From positions 310,001 to 374,000 of the forward strand of contig NZ_CP121664.1 of assembly GCF_029714285.1 (NCBI RefSeq): DNA of 64,000 nucleotides. Direction: 5' to 3'. The translations under genes and the position numbers were made by a program. This document shows, piece by piece, positions 31,127 to 63,368 of the stretch. The notes below the pieces were generated by a model, which saw only the letters and a list, made by a program, of their open reading frames with translations, was not told the origin of the DNA and did not search any database. How positions within the stretch are numbered: the first letter of the stretch is position 1; each line of letters opens with the position of its first letter. The stretch is from Rhizobium sp. CB3090 (GTDB lineage: Bacteria > Pseudomonadota > Alphaproteobacteria > Rhizobiales > Rhizobiaceae).

Positions 31127-31174
31127 TCCTATTGGATTTGCTTGAAGATTCAGGCTCATATGGTAGGGTCTGTC

Positions 31175-32749
31175 ATGCCGCTTCGACCCGATCCCTTGCC
31201 CCAGGATGCTGCGCAATTGACCCGGATCATTCTCTCGCTCGACGAAGAGAATGCCGACCTTAAGGCGCGCGTGGCCTTCCTTGAGCGCCAGCTCTTCGGG
31301 ACGAAATCGGAGAAGATGACGATCATCGATCCAACGCAGGCAATGCTCGACCTTGGCGATGTGAGCGACATCCCCGTTGCTGCCAATGATGATGTCGCGC
31401 CGGTCGGTGAAGATATAACGCAGGCAGGGCGGTCGCCAGCCCGCAATATCGGCCGCTTGCCCAAGCACCTTCCGCGTTATGACGAGATCATCGAGCCGGA
31501 GAGCAAGACTTGTCCCTGCTGTTCGTTCGAACTGCATTGCATCGGCACTGATGTCAGCGAGGCGCTCGACATCGTGCCTGCGGTTATCCGGGTGAAACGG
31601 ACGGTCAGGCCGCGCTATGCCTGCCGGGCCTGCGAAAGCGTCATTGTGCAAGCGCCCGCGCCGGCGCGTGTGATGGACGGCGGCATGGTAACCACGGCGT
31701 TTGCAGCCCATGTCGCCGTTTCGAAGTTTGCCTGGCATCTCCCGCTTCATCGCCAAGCCCAGATGTTTGGCTCCTGCGGCGTCATCATCGATCGCGGCAC
31801 GCTCGGCGCCTGGGTCACTCGGATCGCCTGGTGGCTGGAGCTTCTCTATGATGCGCTCACCGCCTTCATCCGCTCGCAGCCGAGGGTGTTCTGTGACGAG
31901 ACGCCACTTCCGCGGCTCGATCCGGGCCGTAAACGAACCAAGGTCTGCCAGTTATGGGCACAAGCGGTTGACGACCGCCCCTGGAATGGCCCGGCGCCGC
32001 CGGCCGTGGCCTACATTTTTGCCGAAAGCCGCAGCGCTCGCGAGATCGAGGGACAATTGTCATCATTCGCCGGCGTGCTGCAAGTCGATGGATACCAAGC
32101 CTATAAAACCATGGTCAAACGTCGGGGCAAGAGCAATATCGCCCCCATACGGCTGGCCTTCTGCCTTGCGCACGCGCGACGCAAGTTCGTCGATGTCGTC
32201 AAGCTGACCGGCTCTTCGGAGGCTTTGTCGATCCTTGCCAGGATTGCCGAAATCTATCGCATTGAAGCGAGACTGCGGGGCGAAAGTGCCGATACCCGGC
32301 TCGTAGTGAGGCGCCACGAGGCAGCTCCTGTCATGAGAGAACTGAAAGTCCATCTCACCGAATTGAGCGACGAGGTGTCGTCGAAATCAGCGCTTGGCAA
32401 AGCCGTCACTTACACGCTCAACCACTGGAGGGGGCTGGCAGCCTTCCTCGACGACGGCCGGGTTGAGGTAGACTCCAATGTCGTCGAGCGTTCAATGAAA
32501 TCCGTGGCTCTGACGAGAAAGAACTCCTTATTCGTGGGCAACGAGCGGGGTGGAAAGTCTTTCGCTGTCCTCGCATCACTCGTCAACACGGCAAGACTTA
32601 ACGGCGTGGACCCCGAGATCTGGCTTGCCGATGTGCTGGAGCGCATCATCTCCGGCAAAGTGAAAGCCAACGAAATGGAAAGTCTCCTGCCTTGGGCCTG
32701 GAAGGCTGAGCGTGAAGCAATGACACAGCAGGAGCGACGGGCGGCATGA
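31175..32749 (+). CDS. tnpC: IS66 transposase TnpC
   Basis: This 524-residue DDE transposase has an N-terminal coiled coil (LTRIILSLDEENADLKARVAFLERQLFG), then a zinc-binding segment CPCCSFELHCIG. The catalytic domain includes VFCDETPLPRLDPG and LAFCLAHARRKFVD, and ends with the E-region DSNVVERSMKSVALTRKNSLF. ATG 31175 is chosen over the frame opening at 31142. The stop overlaps the UPF0149-like frame. Confidence 0.92.
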   Translation: MPLRPDPLPQDAAQLTRIILSLDEENADLKARVAFLERQLFGTKSEKMTIIDPTQAMLDLGDVSDIPVAANDDVAPVGEDITQAGRSPARNIGRLPKHLPRYDEIIEPESKTCPCCSFELHCIGTDVSEALDIVPAVIRVKRTVRPRYACRACESVIVQAPAPARVMDGGMVTTAFAAHVAVSKFAWHLPLHRQAQMFGSCGVIIDRGTLGAWVTRIAWWLELLYDALTAFIRSQPRVFCDETPLPRLDPGRKRTKVCQLWAQAVDDRPWNGPAPPAVAYIFAESRSAREIEGQLSSFAGVLQVDGYQAYKTMVKRRGKSNIAPIRLAFCLAHARRKFVDVVKLTGSSEALSILARIAEIYRIEARLRGESADTRLVVRRHEAAPVMRELKVHLTELSDEVSSKSALGKAVTYTLNHWRGLAAFLDDGRVEVDSNVVERSMKSVALTRKNSLFVGNERGGKSFAVLASLVNTARLNGVDPEIWLADVLERIISGKVKANEMESLLPWAWKAEREAMTQQERRAA

Positions 32750-47149: not shown

Positions 47150-47962
47150 TTAGGTATGTTTCGGGTCGGTGGTGGTGGTCAAGTTCCTACTTTTCTCCTT
47201 TGCTGTTTTGGGTTCATGCGCTGAGCTGTTCTTGAACCGGAAGCTGTCGTTTCCGGTTTCGAGGATGTGGCAGTGATGGGTAAGCCGGTCGAGCAATGCG
47301 GTGGTCATCTTGGCGTCGCCGAAGACGCTGGCCCATTCGCTGAAGCTCAGGTTGGTGGTGATGATGACGCTGGTCCGCTCGTATAGTTTGCTCAGCAGAT
47401 GGAAGAGCAATGCACCGCCTGATGCGCTGAACGGCAGGTATCCGAGTTCGTCAAGGATAACGAGATCGGAGTGTATGAGCCGGTTGGCGATCTGACCGGA
47501 CCGTCCTTGAGCTTTCTCCTGCTCGAGAGCGTTGACCAGTTCGACGGTCGAGAAGAAGCGAACCCGCTTATGATGATGCTCGATGGCTTGAACACCGATT
47601 GCCGTGGCGACATGCGTTTTGCCTGTGCCGGGCCCGCCGACCAGGACGATGTTGTTGGCCTCGTCGAGGAAGTCGCAGCGATGAAGCTGACGCACGAGCG
47701 CCTCGTTGATCTCGCTGCTTGCGAAGTCGAAGCCGTTCAGATCACGGTAAGCGGGAAAGCGTGCCGTCTTGAGCTGATAGGCTGTCGATCGCACCTCCCG
47801 TTCCGCCGTCTCCGCTTTGAGGAGCTGCGACAGGATCGGAATGGCGGCCTCGAACGCCGGCGCTCCCTGTTCGGTCAGTTCACTGACGGCTTGGGCCATA
47901 CCGTGCATCTTCAATTGCCGCAGCATGATCACGATCGCGCCGCTTGCTGGGTTATGACGCAT
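47150..47962 (-). CDS. istB: IS21 helper ATPase IstB
   Basis: This 270-residue AAA+ protein has Walker [10 protein letters not shown], Walker [11 protein letters not shown] and sensor [10 protein letters not shown]. It works with IstA to choose and bend target DNA. It overlaps the istA stop. Confidence 0.94.
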
Positions 47963-49478
47963 GGCGAATCTCCGTCTTTCTCAGGGTGTCGTAGCGTTCG
48001 ACGTTGGCCTTTGGTTCATTGGTGAGTGTCAGTGCCTGGGGCGCATCTATCGTCGGCGGAGTGAAGGATTTGCCATCGACGAGGCGATGCAGCAGGTTCA
48101 ACACATGCGTCTTGGTCGGAACGCCGGACTTCAGCGCCATGTCGACGGCCGATAGCACGGCCTGTTCATCGTGCTGCAGGACGAGCGCCAGGATATCGAC
48201 CATCTCGCGGTCTCCGCCAGGTTTCTTGAGCAGGTGTTGTTGCAAGGCTTTGAAGGCCTCGGGAAGCTCGGTGAATGGAGCACCGTTGCGGAGAGCGCCG
48301 GGTTTGCGTTGCACGACCGCGAGATAGTGCCGCCAGTCATAAACCGTCTGTCCCGGCCGATCATGGGAACGGTCGATAATGCGCTGGTGCTCGCAGATGA
48401 TCAGGCCTTCGGCGGCGACAACGACACGATCCGGATAGACCCGCAGGCTCACCGGTCGATTGGCGAAGGATGCCGGAACGCTGTAGCGGTTGCGCTCCAG
48501 ATGCACGAGGCAGGTGGGAGAGACCCGCTTGGTGTATTCGACAAAACCATCGAACGGACGGGAAACCGGCATAAGAGCCCGTGCTTCCTCCGCCCAGATA
48601 TCGGCGATGGTGCCGCGCATCTGGCCGTGAGACGTCTGTGCCCAAAACTCTTTGCAGCGTTGCTCTAGCCACTCGTTGAGGGCCTCCAGAGATGGAAAGC
48701 GTGGCATGGGTTGCCATAGCCGATGACGAGCGTCCTGGACGTTCTTCTCGACCTGACCCTTTTCCCAACCGGACGCCGGATTGCAGAACTCCGGTTCGAA
48801 CAGATAGTGGCTGGCCATCGCCAGGAAGCGAACATTCACGTCGCGCTCCTTACCGCGGCCGACCTTGTCGATCGCCGTCTTCATGTTGTCGTAGATGCCG
48901 CGCCGGGGAATGCCACCGAAGACGCGGAATGCGTGATTGTGGGCGTCGAACAACATCTCGTGTGTCTGGAGGAGATAGGCCCGAACGAAAAAGGCCCTGG
49001 AATAGCTCAGCTTCGTATGGGCAACCTGTAGCTTGGTGCGCTCATTGCCGATGATCGCCCAGTCTTCCGACCAGTCGAACTGGAATGCTTCACCGGGCTC
49101 GAATGCCAAAGGCACGAATGTTCCGCGTCCTGACGTCTGAAGCTCTCTCTGTCGATCGGCTCTCCACTCTCGAGCGAAAGCGGCGACACGGCAATAGGAA
49201 CCCTCGTAGCCCAAGCTCAGCAGGTCGGCATGGAGTTGTTTAAGGGTCCGCTTCTGCTTGCGGGATTTGTTGGCCTCCGTCTTCAGCCAGGCCGATAGCC
49301 GGTCGGCAAAAGGGTCAAGCTTGCTCGGCCGCTCCGGAACCTTGAACTTCGGCTCGACGCCACCCAACCGCAGGTACTTGCGAATGGTATTCCGGGACAG
49401 GCCAGTCCTGCGGCATATCTCCCGGATCGATAAATGCTCTCTAAAATGCCAGCGTCGGATCACGCTCAATAACGCCAT
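47952..49478 (-). CDS. istA: IS21 transposase IstA
   Basis: This 508-residue transposase has the helix-turn-helix [21 protein letters not shown] and a DDE core with Asp in FQFDWSEDW and in IYDNMKTAI, and Glu in [14 protein letters not shown] 49478 (ALLSVIRRW) fits the family start; the frame opens at 49538. Confidence 0.93.
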
Positions 49479-49591
49479 GTCGATCACTCCATAGCTCCCG
49501 CTGAAAACACGCGGAGCAAGGTTCAAAACATGGGTCAATTCTCGATGACAATATCCGGTAATGCCGGGTCACTTCTCAGTGCAAATCAACA

Positions 49592-54358: not shown

Positions 54359-55651
54359 CTACGGTTGACGTAGAACTTCGTCCACCAGGGTCAGCGTGCC
54401 AAGGCGATCAAGAAGCTGATTTGCTTTCTTTTCTCCGAGCAATTCGGGCGCCAATGTTGGCCAATGCTCCAGTGCACGACTAACTGTCGCCACGACCTCG
54501 CGGGTGATCAGCTTCTCGTCCAAACGAAGAAAACTTGCGACCCTCTCAAAACGATGAAGGTTCACGTTTTCGAAGCTTTGGGTTTTGACGAACCTCAACG
54601 CCATAGTGTCGGATGGATTGTAAAGAACGGTCGGGACGATATCGTAGGCAGGCGACAATCGGATTTCGCCGGGTGCCGGGAATCGGAAGGACCAGTTCTT
54701 AAGATGGTTGTCGCCATTGCCCAAAAGCACGTCTGCAGCGACCCTTCGGATGGCTTCCAATATGTCATCGCGATGATCGGTACTGAAGCGGCGCACCATG
54801 TTGATGATGGTTTCAGTCGTCGCCATCGTGTATTTGCGATCGCCTATCGCTCCCAGAATTTGGGCTGCGTCTTCGATGTGAATGCGACGATCATCGTCGG
54901 CACGGTCGAAGCGATCGATGACGAGAACGCGTTTTCCGTGGGCCAAGAGTTCCGCGGGAACGCCGCTGATGACATCGCTGGAGACAAGCCGGCAATTTGC
55001 GGTTCGCACGCCAATCATTTTTGCCATATGCATGGCCGCGTATTCAGCCTCGGGCAAACCTGGGAATCGCTCGCTTGCGACCTTGATGATGCAACGGCCG
55101 GTGTCACCGCGACCGGGAACCGTCAGTCGCTCGCCCTCGACGTTGGCTGTGAACTTGAGCTGGACACCTGCGAGCGAGAATTTGACCGCGCCTTCAGGCA
55201 GCGCGACATCCACGCCATGTACCTTTTCGATGGTGATTGGGCCGGCTGACCCTGGGATCGCTGTTTCCGGTACGACGAGAATTGCGCCGGGGAGATCGCC
55301 ACCCAGGCGGGTCAGAACGTCGAATTCGTCGTGATCGCCCGGCCCCATTTCGTTCAACACGAGATCCCTAAGGGCGCCCTCCGGAAGCAGCCCTGAAAAC
55401 CATGGTGGCAATGTGCCGTGAAGCCCAATTTTGTCACCGCGCCGCGCCAGACGATTGCGTGTGCCCTCGTCATCGTCAGGATCGAACCAACCCAGGCTCA
55501 GAATTGGCCGCTTTGGATCCCGTAGGAATGTTTCCGCAACGACAAACGCGACTGCGCCGTCACTGTCGCGCGTCAGGGTGCCTACCCTAACCTTCCCTTG
55601 TGTCTGATCCAGAAGATGGACGCCGAGGATCGCCGAAGATTTCGCCATCAC
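54359..55651 (-). CDS. hipA: HipA-family serine/threonine kinase toxin
   Basis: This 430-residue protein has an N-terminal subdomain to about 110 and a HipA kinase core: the phosphate loop region KFSLAGVQLKFTA, the lysine in CIIKVAS, the catalytic Asp in LLGNGDNHLKNWSF, and the metal Asp in LSPAYDIVPT. HipA toxins phosphorylate aminoacyl-tRNA synthetases and stall growth until HipB binds them. The start overlaps the hipB stop (ATGA), so both are translated together. Confidence 0.9.
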   Translation of the reverse strand: MMAKSSAILGVHLLDQTQGKVRVGTLTRDSDGAVAFVVAETFLRDPKRPILSLGWFDPDDDEGTRNRLARRGDKIGLHGTLPPWFSGLLPEGALRDLVLNEMGPGDHDEFDVLTRLGGDLPGAILVVPETAIPGSAGPITIEKVHGVDVALPEGAVKFSLAGVQLKFTANVEGERLTVPGRGDTGRCIIKVASERFPGLPEAEYAAMHMAKMIGVRTANCRLVSSDVISGVPAELLAHGKRVLVIDRFDRADDDRRIHIEDAAQILGAIGDRKYTMATTETIINMVRRFSTDHRDDILEAIRRVAADVLLGNGDNHLKNWSFRFPAPGEIRLSPAYDIVPTVLYNPSDTMALRFVKTQSFENVNLHRFERVASFLRLDEKLITREVVATVSRALEHWPTLAPELLGEKKANQLLDRLGTLTLVDEVLRQP

Positions 55652-55995
55652 GGCTCCCCTTTGTCGTCTTCATCGAGATCGACAAAAAGTTCCTCGAATG
55701 CGCTGGCCGCCGCCCCTCTATTCTGCTGTTCCCCCTTTTCGCCAATCAGCGCCCTCACTTCCCCGACCCGGGACTTCGGCAGTAGGACGGGCATAAGGTC
55801 GAGTGCATCGCAGATTTCGGCAAACAGGGTCAGTCGGTCCCTACCCCGCCGATCCGTCGCAAGGTCCCGTTCGAGTTCCGATATTCGCGCCCGGTCCCGG
55901 CCGAGCCTTTTCGCAAGTGCTGGCTGACTGAGACCTCGCCGTTTACGGGCGGCCAAGAGTTGTTCGCCAAGAGCGTTGAAAATCGTAGCATTCAT
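55648..55995 (-). CDS. hipB: HipB-family antitoxin, Xre-type regulator
   Basis: This 115-residue protein has an Xre helix-turn-helix at about 8-65 (QLLAARKRRGLSQPALAKRLGRDRARISELER) and an acidic, flexible C-terminus (FEELFVDLDEDD). It neutralises HipA and represses the operon. The repeated CGGAATATCG upstream is the probable operator. Confidence 0.9.
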   Translation of the reverse strand: MNATIFNALGEQLLAARKRRGLSQPALAKRLGRDRARISELERDLATDRRGRDRLTLFAEICDALDLMPVLLPKSRVGEVRALIGEKGEQQNRGAAASAFEELFVDLDEDDKGEP

Positions 55996-56058: not shown

Positions 56059-56724
56059 ATGCGGAATTCTGCAACACTGATCCATAAGGAGCGGAATAGC
56101 GCATCCGGTTCGTCGCTGACCTCAGCGGTTGCGCCAAGCCTGCTCCCGCCTTTTCAGCAATTCGATCTAGCGTTGGCGCAGCGTGGCGATCTCGATCTCG
56201 CCTCTTGTCCATTCATCGACCCAGCGCTCAAACTCTTCGGACCTTTCGATGGGAAGCCCCCATCTTTTGGGCCCGGCCAAACGCCCTTTCGACAATCGCG
56301 CGCGAACTTCGATCGACATGACTAACTCCATCCATCCAATCGGCAGCCCGAACACCCGGGAACGCAGCCGCGCCAATGTCTTAAGCCTGAGTGCGGCTGT
56401 CCTCCGCTTCAATACTCAGGTTTGACTGACGAGGCGACCACCCAGCCACAAGAATATGCGCCCTTCCGAAGAAATCGACGCCGAGGACGACCTTGAAATC
56501 GTCTATGAGTACACGCCTTGGCATTGAGCCGAGGCATTGCCTTCGGCCTGCGGCTAGCGAGCGGCAGTCCGAAGGGAGGCTTCGCCGCGGCCGACATCGA
56601 TCCGATGCGCGCGGTGACGAGGCGCACGTTGACACGCGTGAAAGTTCCTACCGTGTTTCCTTTGAGCGCATCTGCATATTCGATTGACCAGTGCGGGATG
56701 CGGGCAAGTCGCGATGAACGATTT
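56059..56724. other. No gene recognised upstream of hipBA
   Basis: About 660 bp. A minus-strand frame at 56167-56412 (ERSEEFERWVDEWTRGEIEIATLRQR) and one at 56409-56741 have some protein character, but no known domain. The region ends at the IS6 remnant. Confidence 0.35.
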
Positions 56725-57040
56725 CCAGAGCTTCGACCCAAGGGACAAGGGAGCAGCTCTGCGCCTGATGCGCAAGCTGCTCAGGGGCCAGGGCACCACC
56801 CCGCGGGTAGTGGTGACCGACAAACTGCGTTCCTACTCTGCCGCAAAGCGGAATTGATGCCCGGTGTCGAGCATCGCTCGCACAAAGGGCTCAACAATCG
56901 GGCCGAGAATTCGCACCTTTCCGTGCGACGACGGGAGCGACGTATGATGCGCTTCAAGTCGGCACGGCAATGCCAGCCCTTCGTCTCAGTCCATGGCCAG
57001 ATCGCCAATCATTTTCTTCTTCACCGAAAAACCTGGCTGC
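56725..57040 (+). pseudogene. IS6-family (IS26-type) transposase remnant
   Basis: Segments of the IS6 transposase catalytic domain: RGQGTTPRVVVTDKLRSYSAAKR, then in a shifted frame MPGVEHRSHKGLNNRAENSHL and RRRERRMMRFKSARQCQPFVS. The shift is near 56850, from loss of one base. The N-terminal helix-turn-helix part is missing. It marks one edge of the radical-SAM cassette. Confidence 0.85.
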
Positions 57041-57229
57041 CGCCGATCATAAATGCCGTTAAGGCGATGCTACCGATGGCGCTTCTGGCGGCGAATGCTG
57101 CCGAGAACGCCGCGCTGAAGGCTGAGAGAGACGCTCTTGCGCAGCGTGTCTTCAAGCTTGAGGAAGAACTGGCGCTTGCTGTCGATGGCGGTAAAGATGC
57201 TCGGATAGATGGCGCCGAGAGGAATTGAT
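57041..57229 (+). other. Coiled-coil coding stretch of unknown origin
   Basis: The frame that carries the IS6 remnant continues through AENAALKAERDALAQRVFKLEEELALAV, a heptad-rich stretch like the N-terminal coiled coil of transposases. It is probably another transposon scrap joined to the IS6 remnant. Confidence 0.35.
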
Positions 57230-57263
57230 GCGGAATTCGGCTCGGCGTGGTGCTGAATTCCGC
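57230..57263 (-). terminator. Hairpin directly after the radical-SAM gene
   Basis: GCGGAATTCGGC and GCTGAATTCCGC pair in 11 of 12 positions around a 10-nt loop, overlapping the last base of the stop codon region on the minus strand. No T-run follows. It probably stabilises or ends the cassette transcript. Confidence 0.45.
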
Positions 57264-58372
57264 TAGTTCAAGAACGGACCGCCGCAAGACGGATCTTTGC
57301 CGAAGTAGCAGCCGGTCACGTTGAAAGAATCCACAAAACAGGACGTCCGGCAAAGGTGCAGCTTGCTGCAGATGGCACAGCCCGAATCAACAACCTCTGG
57401 ATCTGTCGCTCGCTTACAAAGTAGCGCGAATGTATCACTGTTCCAAATCTCTTTGAGGCCAGCATCGAAAACATTGCCAAAAGTAAAAGCCTTCACCCCG
57501 TGCATCTTGTCGCATACGGACACGTCGCCGCTCGGAAATATCGACATGCCAGACTGCATGCCGCCACAGGGATGCCAGTCCGTCTCTGTCCACAATTTGG
57601 TGGTATCGTCGGGCGGTTCTATATTACAGAGATGTGAATACTGTTCACGTTTTTGTATGATCCGATCTCGGGCACGTGACAGCTCTTCCGCAGTAACGTT
57701 CGGAGCACCATTGGCGGCGGAGTTGATTGCCCCGCTCTCTATATAGGAAATGTCGATACCTTCAACTCCCAAATCGACCAGAAAGTCTATGGTTTCCTCC
57801 ACCGCATGCTGGGTCATTGGCGTCAGCACGCTCTTGACACGCACTCGGATTCCGGCTGCGCGTAAAAAACGAATCGCATTGGCCACCTTGGGAAAATGCC
57901 CGCTGGTCCGGGTCACCTGATCATGCAGCTGCGGCGAGCAGGCGTCCAAACTGATCGTCACTTCTTTCATGCCTGCATCTTTCAAGCGGACGGCAATGTC
58001 AGGATCAGTCCCGATTACCGTTCCGTTGCTAGTGAAGACCGGGATCATACCCCGTGTGAGCGTTCGCTCTAGCAACTCGAGCCAACCATCAAAGATGGTA
58101 GGCTCGCCACCAGTGAATCCTGCAAACACCACGCCCCAGTCCGCAGCCTCATCCAGCAACGCAAGGCACTTGCTCGAGCTCCAGCGCGGGTCGCTCCTCT
58201 GGCGACTATCTTGATAACAGTAGGAACAGCTGAAGTTGCAATTGAACGTAAGAGTGATGCTGATACCCGCAGGAACGGGCCATTTGCCAAAAGTTGCGAG
58301 GTCAAGCGCGGAGGAATCAACCCGGTAGAGGAATTTTTGCGGACTAAATCGATCTCTTGGGTTTGCCGTCAT
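57263..58372 (-). CDS. Radical SAM/SPASM peptide maturase
   Basis: This 369-residue enzyme has a radical-SAM motif CNFSCSYCYQD (Cx3CxxC) at residues ~45-52, a SAM-binding FTGGEPTIFDGW and ITISLDACSP-like strand (VTISLDACSPQLHD). The C-terminal SPASM region has many cysteines (WHPCGGMQSG, VSVCDKMHG, SGCAICSKLHLCRTSCFVD, CYFGKDPSCGG). This is the architecture of PqqE-like and sactipeptide-type maturases. It starts 7 bp after the PqqD-like gene, implying joint action on a peptide. The closest named family is not identifiable here. Confidence 0.88.
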   Translation of the reverse strand: MTANPRDRFSPQKFLYRVDSSALDLATFGKWPVPAGISITLTFNCNFSCSYCYQDSRQRSDPRWSSSKCLALLDEAADWGVVFAGFTGGEPTIFDGWLELLERTLTRGMIPVFTSNGTVIGTDPDIAVRLKDAGMKEVTISLDACSPQLHDQVTRTSGHFPKVANAIRFLRAAGIRVRVKSVLTPMTQHAVEETIDFLVDLGVEGIDISYIESGAINSAANGAPNVTAEELSRARDRIIQKREQYSHLCNIEPPDDTTKLWTETDWHPCGGMQSGMSIFPSGDVSVCDKMHGVKAFTFGNVFDAGLKEIWNSDTFALLCKRATDPEVVDSGCAICSKLHLCRTSCFVDSFNVTGCYFGKDPSCGGPFLN

Positions 58373-58379
58373 GTCGAAA

Positions 58380-58640
58380 TTAAAGAAAATGCTGATACTT
58401 GCTCAACAACTGATCAACTTGTGAGTGAGCATCAACACCCTCAAGGTCAAAAGTTTGGCCATAGATAAAGGCGATTTGTGAAGGGAGGAGACCTTTGTCA
58501 CACAGCGACAGAAAGAACGCGTGAGAAGGGTCAAGCATTTGGATCTGGGAAGGATGGTGACCATGAGCCAAGGCGTACCCCGCCATCGGCTTTAGGCAAA
58601 CCGTTTCCTTGAGCTGAGGGAACAACTTGGTATGGTCCAT
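58380..58640 (-). CDS. PqqD-like RiPP recognition element protein
   Basis: This 86-residue protein has a PqqD-like pattern: an opening strand region (ETVCLKPMAGYALAHGHHP), then QMLDPSHAFFLSLCDKGLLPSQIAFIYGQTFD, matching the LDPSxAxxLxLCDG-type winged-helix core. A helical end follows (SQVDQLLSKYQHF). Such proteins bind leader peptides and hand them to the radical-SAM enzyme. ATG 58640 is the likely start, although the frame is open to 58805. It lies between the candidate precursor and the maturase. Confidence 0.75.
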   Translation of the reverse strand: MDHTKLFPQLKETVCLKPMAGYALAHGHHPSQIQMLDPSHAFFLSLCDKGLLPSQIAFIYGQTFDLEGVDAHSQVDQLLSKYQHFL

Positions 58641-58874
58641 GGTCGTTAATCCGGATTTCCGATCAAGGTACGCCGACGAGCTGGATGCTGGCCACGACCG
58701 CAGCCAGCTCCATTGCTCTGAAGAGGGGGCCGGGCCTCTCCAAAAGCTCGCGCGGCGATAGCCGCACTCCTCAAACCCTCCACTCTGCCCCGCTCTGCAC
58801 CCCAAAAGATGCCGACGCTGGTAAAGTGCCGCTCCGGATTTGAGCTATGTTGCCCGGTGGACGTCGATCGAGGA

Positions 58875-59075
58875 TCAATGTTCAGTGCAGTTGATCGAGA
58901 TAGGTTTGGTATTCCAGCAGCCCGGCCAGTCTGGCCGGCGGACTGCGATTTCGGCTGCCCCTTGCACGGGTAGCGCCCGTATCTCTGTTCGAATAGCCTC
59001 TTCACGGAGCTGCGCAGCCAGGATCTTTAGGGTATCTGCTGTGTGCACGTATCCCGAGGTTTGGTGGTCCGTCAT
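58875..59075 (-). CDS. Candidate RiPP precursor peptide, 66 residues
   Basis: A small frame on the same strand, 234 bp upstream of the PqqD-like gene, has a clear AGGAG ribosome binding site 8 bases before ATG. The first ~45 residues are helical and charged (ILAAQLREEAIRTEIRALPV), like a leader. The last ~20 (PDWPGCWNTKPISINCTEH) contain two Trp, two Cys, two Pro and Asn/Thr, unusual for a random frame and rich in residues that radical-SAM/SPASM enzymes cross-link. No family recognised. The 234-bp gap is the main reason for caution. Confidence 0.45.
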   Translation of the reverse strand: MTDHQTSGYVHTADTLKILAAQLREEAIRTEIRALPVQGAAEIAVRRPDWPGCWNTKPISINCTEH

Positions 59076-59493
59076 TAGTCAGTCTCCTGAGTTGAAGTGT
59101 GCCAAAAAGTTTACAAAAAACGGGAAGCAAGCGTCATGCCGCGTCGGCCGCAAGTGCGGCTCCACGCCGTGAATGTCCGGCATTTGCTCACCTTTTTTCA
59201 AGTGGGTACACTGGCATCCTTATATGTCGGAGTTTCGGATTGTTCGACCGGGGTAGAATTTGTCGGATGGGCGACAGCTTTGTCTGATCGAGTCTTATCG
59301 AGATCTCGGGGACGTATGAGCAGGCCCCGGCGAGACGGGCCGGTACGATCATGGCCTGGAGAAGGCACCCCACCAAACAAAAGCTCACGCTGCCGCCCGA
59401 TGACCTGTGATTAGGCATGGAATAAGGAGGCTGACTCAGTCTCGCTGATATTTTGGATTCGACTGGCCTTGTTCTCGAAGGAGAAACAGCACC
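59076..59493. other. Region upstream of the cassette, no gene recognised
   Basis: About 420 bp before the possible precursor (reading leftwards) and the ISL3 remnant (reading rightwards). It should contain the cassette's promoter. I see no clear -35/-10 or operator dyad. Confidence 0.4.
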
Positions 59494-62223: not shown

Positions 62224-62840
62224 CTTGCCCTACCCAATCACTGTTTTTTGTCGCGCGCGCTCGCAGTGACGGCAAACAACTGGCCCCCTGTCAGCTACTA
62301 ACGAAAAATTGATTGACCTCAAATAGCCTTTTCTGGCTATTTCGCTCATGTCTTCTTCATCGGACGAAGCGATTTGACCTTTGAGCAAATTCGCCGCTCA
62401 TGGCGCTATCAAGACGCGTATCAGTGTTTCGATGCGGTCCGTCTTTGCTCGGGGATTAACAGCGAGGCATGGCAATGGATGTAGCTTCCACAATATGGCG
62501 CTCGATCCAAGTTCCTTGCCGAGCAATCGCCCCAGCCAAATATCAAGTCCGCTTCCTCAATCACCGCCGGCGGATAGAGCCTGCCTTATGCCGCTCACCT
62601 TTCTGGCGAGGGGCCGCAAAGTATGAGAACCAAGGCGATGTCTCTCCCAGTCGTATGGCGACACTTTCGCTCCTACGAACAGCGGTACGATCCTGCTCGC
62701 CGTTCATCGCGGGGATCGAACATCCATTGCGCTAGATCGCGCTGCTGCGCTTTTGAAGGATGATATCATGCCCTCTACATGCTGCACGGCTCTATAACGG
62801 CTTCTGGTGCACGCGCGACCGCAGCCTGCTAAGTCAGCCT
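62224..62840. other. No gene recognised
   Basis: About 600 bp upstream of the AraC-type gene. It presumably includes that gene's promoter. Short frames without motifs. Confidence 0.4.
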
Positions 62841-62849
62841 AGCGCCGAT

Positions 62850-63200
62850 GCCGCCAAAGTGCGGATGTATGAATTGTTTGGAAACGACTTGCAAAGCGTG
62901 GGGCCTTCTTTCGGATATAACCTCCCACTCTACGTGTGGTGCGCGGAAGTCTTAAAGGATTTTTTAGCTCGCCGTGCGCCCCTACCGAACCTTCAGTTGG
63001 ATCGGAGCCGTTATCAGGGGGAGATGTTGCTTATCGCAGCAGGGAACGATGTCATATTCTCTCCGGCGATGGGCAAAGCTATCGTTTCAGCCTATCCCAA
63101 AGCACGATTCTTATTGGTTCGAGGTGGCCACCGGCTGGATCTGATCACGGGTACCACCGTTCCGTTCGCCGAGCGTACTTTTTGCATGGCCTCCGCGCGC
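62850..63200 (+). pseudogene. Alpha/beta-hydrolase C-terminal remnant
   Basis: The plus-strand frame reads FGYNLPLYVWCAEVLKDFLARR, then RYQGEMLLIAAGNDVIFSPA and AIVSAYPKARFLLVRGGHRLD. The Asp and His have the spacing of the last two catalytic residues of alpha/beta hydrolases. The nucleophile part is absent upstream. The frame then runs into unrelated sequence to 63368. Confidence 0.4.
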
Positions 63201-63368
63201 ATGACACAACCGTGCTCCTGGACTTCCCCCGTCAGCCAGCCGGCGTTCGCCGGAGTGAAAGAGCAACGGAGCCGAGCGCATGTCTGGCGTGACCCGTTTG
63301 CCGAGCCAGCCGAATTTTCCAGCACGCTGTCGGTTCGACGGTCCTCGCAACTCCCACCGCCTTCATGA

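Follow-up and report, generated by a model that had tools for sequence, protein, structure and literature searches.

SuiB, the streptide maturase, makes a Lys–Trp bond and binds its helical leader away from the site used in other RRE systems, where the leader joins the RRE sheet as an extra strand. PqqE is served in trans by PqqD, a free RRE. SkfB, the sporulation killing factor sactisynthase, has a Twitch domain instead of SPASM, according to an excerpt of PMC6231123.

The cassette described here lies in the window, by which we mean the whole stretch of 64,000 nucleotides analysed, from a genome of 6.49 Mb in 4 contigs. The model of a close homologue of its enzyme resembles the folds of SuiB, SkfB and PqqE. 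SuiB (PDB 5v1q/5v1s/5v1t) is 17–19% identical to the family enzyme, with 405 residues aligned over residues 8–454 of the model, at most 336 of which can lie after residue 118, and for SkfB (PDB 6efn) 360 residues align over 12–448 at 18–19% identity. Of the PDB entries, PqqE gives the family enzyme profile its best match (6.3e-28). An extra cysteine of the family enzyme is SuiB-like, whereas the chemistry of SuiB is not indicated by the family's GCWN core. The free PqqD resembles the split copy in the window, unlike the family's other members, in which the RRE is fused.

Scores against the NCBIfam models of radical SAM/SPASM maturases like the family enzyme fall well below their cut-offs: 93.2 bits against 381.35 for PqqE, at best 113.5 against 400 for GeoRSP, 105.3 against 650 for WgkB, 107 against 625 for StsB and 101.5 against 265 for MftC. 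None of the best 25 of 85 NCBIfam matches of the window enzyme reaches its cut-off, nor does any of the 25 listed for each of the homologues P0001, P0012 and P0030, and the match lists of the precursors tested contain no PqqA model. Neither Pfam nor NCBIfam has a name for the family. No description of it was found in the literature, including the searchable parts of PMC6231123, PMC8326336, PMC7470986 and PMC9062424 (supplements lay outside the search), and the core motif returned 0 papers; the network study PMC9062424 may hold the cluster in its supplement. The pair is a real, unnamed system, of an RRE-bearing radical-SAM/SPASM RiPP maturase type that is already known. It offers a small, defined precursor–enzyme pair in rhizobia and other alphaproteobacteria, and no described radical-SAM RiPP of this type was found.

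Layout of the cassette

The preliminary description reported three small genes on the minus strand, the first a possible 66-residue precursor, with an AGGAG sequence before the small frame and a 7-nt gap before the enzyme. This arrangement is as described, with frames of 66, 86 and 369 aa, the ATG of the 369-aa frame lying 7 nt past the stop of the 86-aa frame. The features are:

58875..59075, minus strand: precursor peptide gene, 66 aa (direct reading; 60 database homologues in all)
58947..59075, minus strand: leader part of the precursor, about residues 1–43 (helix 13–43 predicted by AlphaFold2)
58875..58946, minus strand: core part of the precursor, about residues 44–66 plus stop codon, ...RRPDWPGCWNTKPISINCTEH (unstructured in the model)
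59084..59088, minus strand: ribosome-binding site AGGAG, 8 nt upstream of the precursor's ATG (direct reading)
58641..58874, minus strand: spacer of 234 bp from the precursor stop to the RRE frame (about 61–150 bp outside the window's clade)
58380..58640, minus strand: frame of the PqqD-like RRE domain, 86 aa (fused in relatives to the N-terminus of the enzyme)
58373..58390, minus strand: junction with a one-base length difference that breaks the fused frame (new ATG then at 58372)
57263..58372, minus strand: radical-SAM/SPASM peptide maturase, 369 aa in the window frame (domain and alignment evidence)
57230..57263, minus strand: 9-bp inverted repeat just past the enzyme, candidate terminator (among compared loci common only to CB3171)
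56518..57228, plus strand: IS6-type transposase remnant edging the cassette

The hairpin previously reported past the enzyme does exist as DNA (−16.2 kcal/mol, z −3.0) but it has no T-run, abuts the transposase fragment and lies outside the conserved cassette, since alignments to all compared loci but CB3171 stop at or before the enzyme's stop. Elsewhere in the window, a HipA-like gene (54359–55995; PF07804, PF13657) has upstream of it a helix-turn-helix frame that resembles HipB-type antitoxins at 27.2 bits, below the cut-off of 71.65, and IS21-type and IS66-type transposase genes are found at 47150–49538 and 31142–32749, respectively.

The precursor and its pairing with the enzyme

Homologues of the 66-mer comprise 46 proteins at E < 1e-12 from a first database search and 14 more from a second, 60 in all (P0082, at E 5.9, was excluded; P0041 of the first search was absent from the second). 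The precursor alignment has 52 rows with repeats, L034 being identical to P0037 and L036 to P0041, with L035 and P0039 nearly so. The leader of the homologues follows the consensus GxLHxPExLxxLAxQLRxEADRAEARAxRL, is helical, and has His11, Leu19, Gln22, Leu23, Arg24, Glu26, Ala27, Arg33 and Ala34 invariant in the 52 rows. For the window 66-mer, AlphaFold2 predicts a single helix at 13–43 and then a tail without secondary structure (pLDDT ~50), with a mean pLDDT of 90 for residues 11–20, 97 for 21–30 and 80 for 31–40, and 68 for the entire model. The helical leader read from the sequence at the outset agrees with this prediction, as does the Trp/Cys/Asn-rich tail with the two residues of each kind counted in it.

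Alignment of the tails, a check proposed in the preliminary description, brought out a conserved core around GCWN. In most homologues it reads [GS]C-x-[PS]-GCWN-x-LSTCI-x-[VI]-QPL (also given as [GS]CxPGCWNxLSTCIx[VI]QPL), with Cys53 in 52/52 rows, Trp54 and Asn55 each in 48/52, the third Cys in 46/52 and the first in 44/52; the invariant Cys is compatible with a thioether of the sactipeptide or ranthipeptide kind. A deviant core, RRPDWPGCWNTK-x-IS-x-NCTEH, is common to the window, CB3171, Ensifer and S. kostiense, and here (RRPDWPGCWNTKPISINCTEH in the window) GCWN is retained, the first Cys is absent and the later Cys is shifted. The precursor of R. etli IE4803 (L036:9451–9633) has a normal leader and a shortened core without Trp and Asn (PCCSPILCASVGG); its DNA aligns with that of Neorhizobium without gaps through the core and has a premature stop, so that the core is either retuned or else decaying. 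Among remote relatives, P0094 and P0095 have a Cys-bearing core without CWN, whilst P0096 matches in the leader only.

Between the window and Ensifer aridi, 8 codons of the 66-aa frame differ synonymously and 9 change the amino acid (dN 0.063, dS 0.210, dN/dS 0.30); 183/201 bases of the frame are identical, as against 198/233 in the adjacent spacer. Together with the 46 homologues, these figures indicate that the frame is more than a chance open reading frame. It had been remarked that the precursor family was not recognisable, and neither the 66-aa nor the 86-aa frame matches any Pfam or NCBIfam family at E <= 1. Pfam searches with the 52 precursors gave scattered weak matches to 19 families, the widest in 7/52 and the best at 0.00051 (a pilin model). 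The window's genome has one precursor copy, the next peptide match being at E 0.66.

A precursor homologue was found just upstream of the enzyme, on the same strand, in 13/13 distinct loci read (the window included), all picked for bearing the enzyme and with L032 and L047 counted as one contig. The gap between the two is about 61–150 bp outside the window's clade and 234–245 bp inside it (61–245 bp overall). The preliminary description had asked whether its trio of genes is conserved in the same order, and whether the small frame might prove unconserved beside homologous maturases. The small frame is conserved there and the order of precursor and enzyme is kept in every locus, but relatives encode two genes rather than three, with the RRE fused to the enzyme.

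Database entries bear on the same point. Amongst 34 enzyme rows with a contig, 11 have a contig size exactly equal to that of a precursor row (9892, 3815, 224487, 4171419, 77320, 4109, 4592, 5730, 2280991, 4998 and 6180), and these size-matched pairs include enzymes merely 47–51% identical to the window's. For 4 more the precursor was found in the DNA of records 345201, 452822, 499136 and 1971393. The other 19/34, including Roseibium and Longilinea, have no precursor among the database rows, the reading of DNA having covered other loci. The identity matrix of the peptides is correlated with that of the enzymes across 19 distinct pairs, 6 of them joined through contig size alone (rho 0.50, 0/999 permutations), and is so with duplicate contigs included (21 pairs, rho 0.39, 1/999); such a correlation would be expected for partners and also for shared descent, which permutation leaves in. 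With the canonical precursor as query, tblastn found 3/5 of the enzyme-bearing plasmid records and missed the deviant peptides of CB3171 and R. etli, which were recovered through reading frames upstream of the enzyme.

Could the small frame and the enzyme be neighbours through chance, the enzyme's substrate lying elsewhere? The long spacer in the window's clade and the 19 enzyme rows without a precursor seen would be consistent with this, but the 13/13 loci and the 11 shared contig sizes largely refute it and we regard it as scarcely credible. We hold with high confidence that the 66-aa frame is a precursor paired with the maturase. As to the earlier proposal that the small frame is the maturase's substrate, conservation of leader, core and gene order bears it out, and from these patterns we infer the modification itself: the conserved peptide is very probably chemically modified by the neighbouring enzyme.

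The maturase, its RRE domain and the frame break

The window enzyme had been described as a SPASM radical-SAM protein, and its domains confirm this. It carries the CX3CX2C motif as CNFSCSYC, the three cysteines being invariant in 30 aligned rows, and scores 80.5 bits with Radical_SAM PF04055 (cut-off 29.5) and 38.7 bits with SPASM PF13186 (cut-off 21.5). A protein search gave 35 homologues at E <= 1e-20, of which 30, of 452 to 484 residues, were aligned; the shorter entries P0004, P0019, P0021, P0031 and P0035 were left out, although the DNA of the P0004 locus holds a complete 460-aa fused frame. Seven cysteines of the SPASM region are invariant in the 30 rows (C358, C376, C421, C424, C430, C434 and C452 in P0001 numbering), as in the seven-cysteine pattern of the SPASM domain, and an eighth in the linker before it (C338 of P0001) is present in at least 90% of aligned rows.

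Homologues of the enzyme occur in Ensifer aridi, Mesorhizobium huakuii, Rhizobium etli, Neorhizobium huautlense, Rhodopseudomonas julia, Sphingomonas pokkalii, Roseibium, Afifella pfennigii, metagenomes and one Longilinea metagenome assembly. The enzyme is rare: at a profile E <= 1e-60 it was found in 4/394 genomes of the family, 6/397 of the order, 1/385 of the class and 1/398 of the phylum, counts that are lower bounds from overlapping draws (each including G000) with at most 4 candidates scored per genome. Within one genus 4/5 genomes have it, and the enzyme-bearing genomes of these draws number 8 in all. Each genome of 61 relatives gave a radical-SAM match, none of them near, the window's own scoring 866.9 bits and the next 84.1 at 23% identity. 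The window's genome has no second copy (next match 52.1 bits). Out of 405 plasmid records matched, 5 bear a copy of the enzyme at 65–98% identity, and a plasmid of Rhizobium sp. CB3171 carries the nearest relative of the window cassette. Viral contigs gave remote radical-SAM matches only (79 loci kept, 21–38% identity over parts of the protein) and phages none at E <= 1e-40.

The view that the PqqD-like protein stands alone did not survive comparison. The domain is fused N-terminally to the enzyme in 30/30 aligned homologues, whose length reflects that each starts with the domain encoded in the window as the 86-aa frame, and of the copies seen only the window's is split. Its assignment as an RRE, a winged helix of the PqqD fold, comes from the predicted full-length model of a close homologue, in which strands are followed by helices at 38–49, 53–64 and 68–81; by sequence, it has no Pfam or NCBIfam match at E <= 1, PqqD PF05402 included, and the PDB profile search gave none at E <= 10.

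Across 2778 bp the cassette of CB3171 has 98.9% DNA identity to that of the window, the two differing by 30 substitutions and a single indel. This indel falls at the domain junction, in a short homopolymer, and breaks the fused frame; the junction is intact in CB3171, two Ensifer strains and M. huakuii. Where the window enzyme has its ATG, the sole in-frame start in the first 40 codons past the break, CB3171 and both Ensifer strains read ACG. By a post hoc count that takes all changes as equally likely, 30 random substitutions would create such a start in about 1% (within 5–10 codons) to about 4% (within 40) of cases, which favours a real fission and still leaves room for a sequence error. The new ATG right past the break suggests that the split may be real. 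By eye, no Shine-Dalgarno-like sequence precedes this ATG. Programmed frameshifting was rejected as the main reading of the break, nothing like a ribosome-binding site being seen just upstream.

It is possible, if somewhat doubtful, that the frameshift arose through an error in sequencing or assembly and that the true gene encodes a normal fused maturase: the break lies in a short homopolymer and is the only indel in a block otherwise nearly identical to the intact CB3171 copy, but the change from ACG to ATG immediately downstream supplies the enzyme with a start codon absent in relatives. Another reading, which we think unlikely, has the window copy as a decaying, non-functional remnant, its maturase broken by the frameshift, its core drifted and insertion-sequence debris beside it. 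The frameshift at the domain junction, the enzyme ATG with no Shine-Dalgarno-like sequence before it, the adjoining IS6 fragment, the deviant core and a dN/dS of 0.39 against CB3171 (from few changes) would all suit decay. However, CB3171, E. aridi, Ensifer LCM4579 and S. kostiense all retain this deviant core, the enzyme frames of deviant-core relatives are intact where read (L031, L032 and L033), both window frames (RRE and enzyme) remain open, and an in-frame ATG soon past the break is expected in only the ~1–4% of cases counted post hoc above. Whether the window's own split copy is active is, on its sequence, evenly balanced. A genuine break would leave the RRE to work in trans, in the manner of PqqD with PqqE, and the window may offer a natural example of an RRE that has come apart from its enzyme.

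Proposed product and surroundings

We strongly favour a minimal RiPP cassette of an unnamed family, in which gene A encodes a precursor of ~60 aa and gene B a maturase of three modules, namely an RRE, a radical-SAM barrel and SPASM. A is a conserved leader–core peptide beside B in every locus read, and the model of B is folded like the SPASM peptide maturases that bear an RRE. The amphipathic leader would be bound by the RRE, positioning the GCWN core at the SAM cluster, where a 5'-deoxyadenosyl radical would take H from a core residue; the resulting core carbon would then bond to a partner, forming a cross-link. Our first guess for the partner is the invariant Cys53 (a thioether) and our second a carbon–carbon link via Trp54. 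The invariance of the Cys argues for the former, whilst the SuiB-like extra cysteine keeps the latter in play, and a thioether at the core Cys is a tentative assignment, a little short of an even chance.

Over flanks of ~6–10 kb (less in L045), no listed family occurs in more than 6/14 loci, frames overlapping the pair aside and with two of the 14 being one contig. No exporter or peptidase gene is adjacent in the window, as already remarked, and the flanks of the loci compared have no conserved exporter, peptidase, dehydrogenase or oxidoreductase. Taken with the near-fixed core, the want of a conserved exporter or peptidase suggests one fixed role, perhaps intracellular, and not a diversifying bacteriocin, and raises the question of what the product does. 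A peptide-derived intracellular redox cofactor or electron carrier, like PQQ or mycofactocin and not secreted, would agree with a core that is near-fixed across distant enzymes, with flanks that share no exporter and with the one precursor copy in the window's genome. Yet no peptidase, dehydrogenase or oxidoreductase is conserved in those flanks, and both the window's clade and R. etli have an altered core; we consider such a product improbable. A long shot is that it is a further kind of intracellular cofactor or carrier, a radical-cross-linked, near-fixed GCWNxLSTCI used where it is made and spread among rhizobial plasmids, with the window's clade having a retuned core and its maturase having undergone fission into a trans-acting RRE and an enzyme.

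Candidate partners of the minimal RiPP cassette were sought among its neighbours and rejected as not common to all loci. They include LodA/GoxA oxidases (beside the M. huakuii copy), ABC, S8 peptidase and NRPS genes (near the CB3171 copy), and a set of 10 neighbours scanned in three loci that covers DctM, DctP, integrase, AMP-binding, ExoD, FGGY kinase, GH12 and YscJ. A PEP-mutase-like frame was likewise dismissed as shared context, the window and R. etli copies being only 39% identical. Homology to Ensifer stops at the enzyme's stop. Transposase or recombinase genes are annotated in the flanks of the plasmid copies of CB3171, M. huakuii and S. fredii, and none in that of R. etli; such neighbours fit movement of the pair as a two-gene unit.

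Some of these plasmids carry further genes of note. Upstream of the pair in M. huakuii (L034:2630–8828) are a tyrosinase, two LodA/GoxA-type oxidase frames and an FAD oxidoreductase, a group not annotated beside the other plasmid copies. Near its copy of the cassette, the CB3171 plasmid has a second candidate radical-SAM RiPP cassette (L033:4750–7957), with radical-SAM proteins of 453 aa (nearest TIGR04463, 242 bits against a cut-off of 525) and 500 aa, along with a peptide of 77 aa that ends in AAGCDSCTVCPCMICW; no DNA similarity to it was found in the window. Positions 62808–63317 of the window match, at 92% identity, a portion of a hypothetical gene of 402 aa close to the cassette of CB3171, suggesting that the window once contained more of the CB3171 region.
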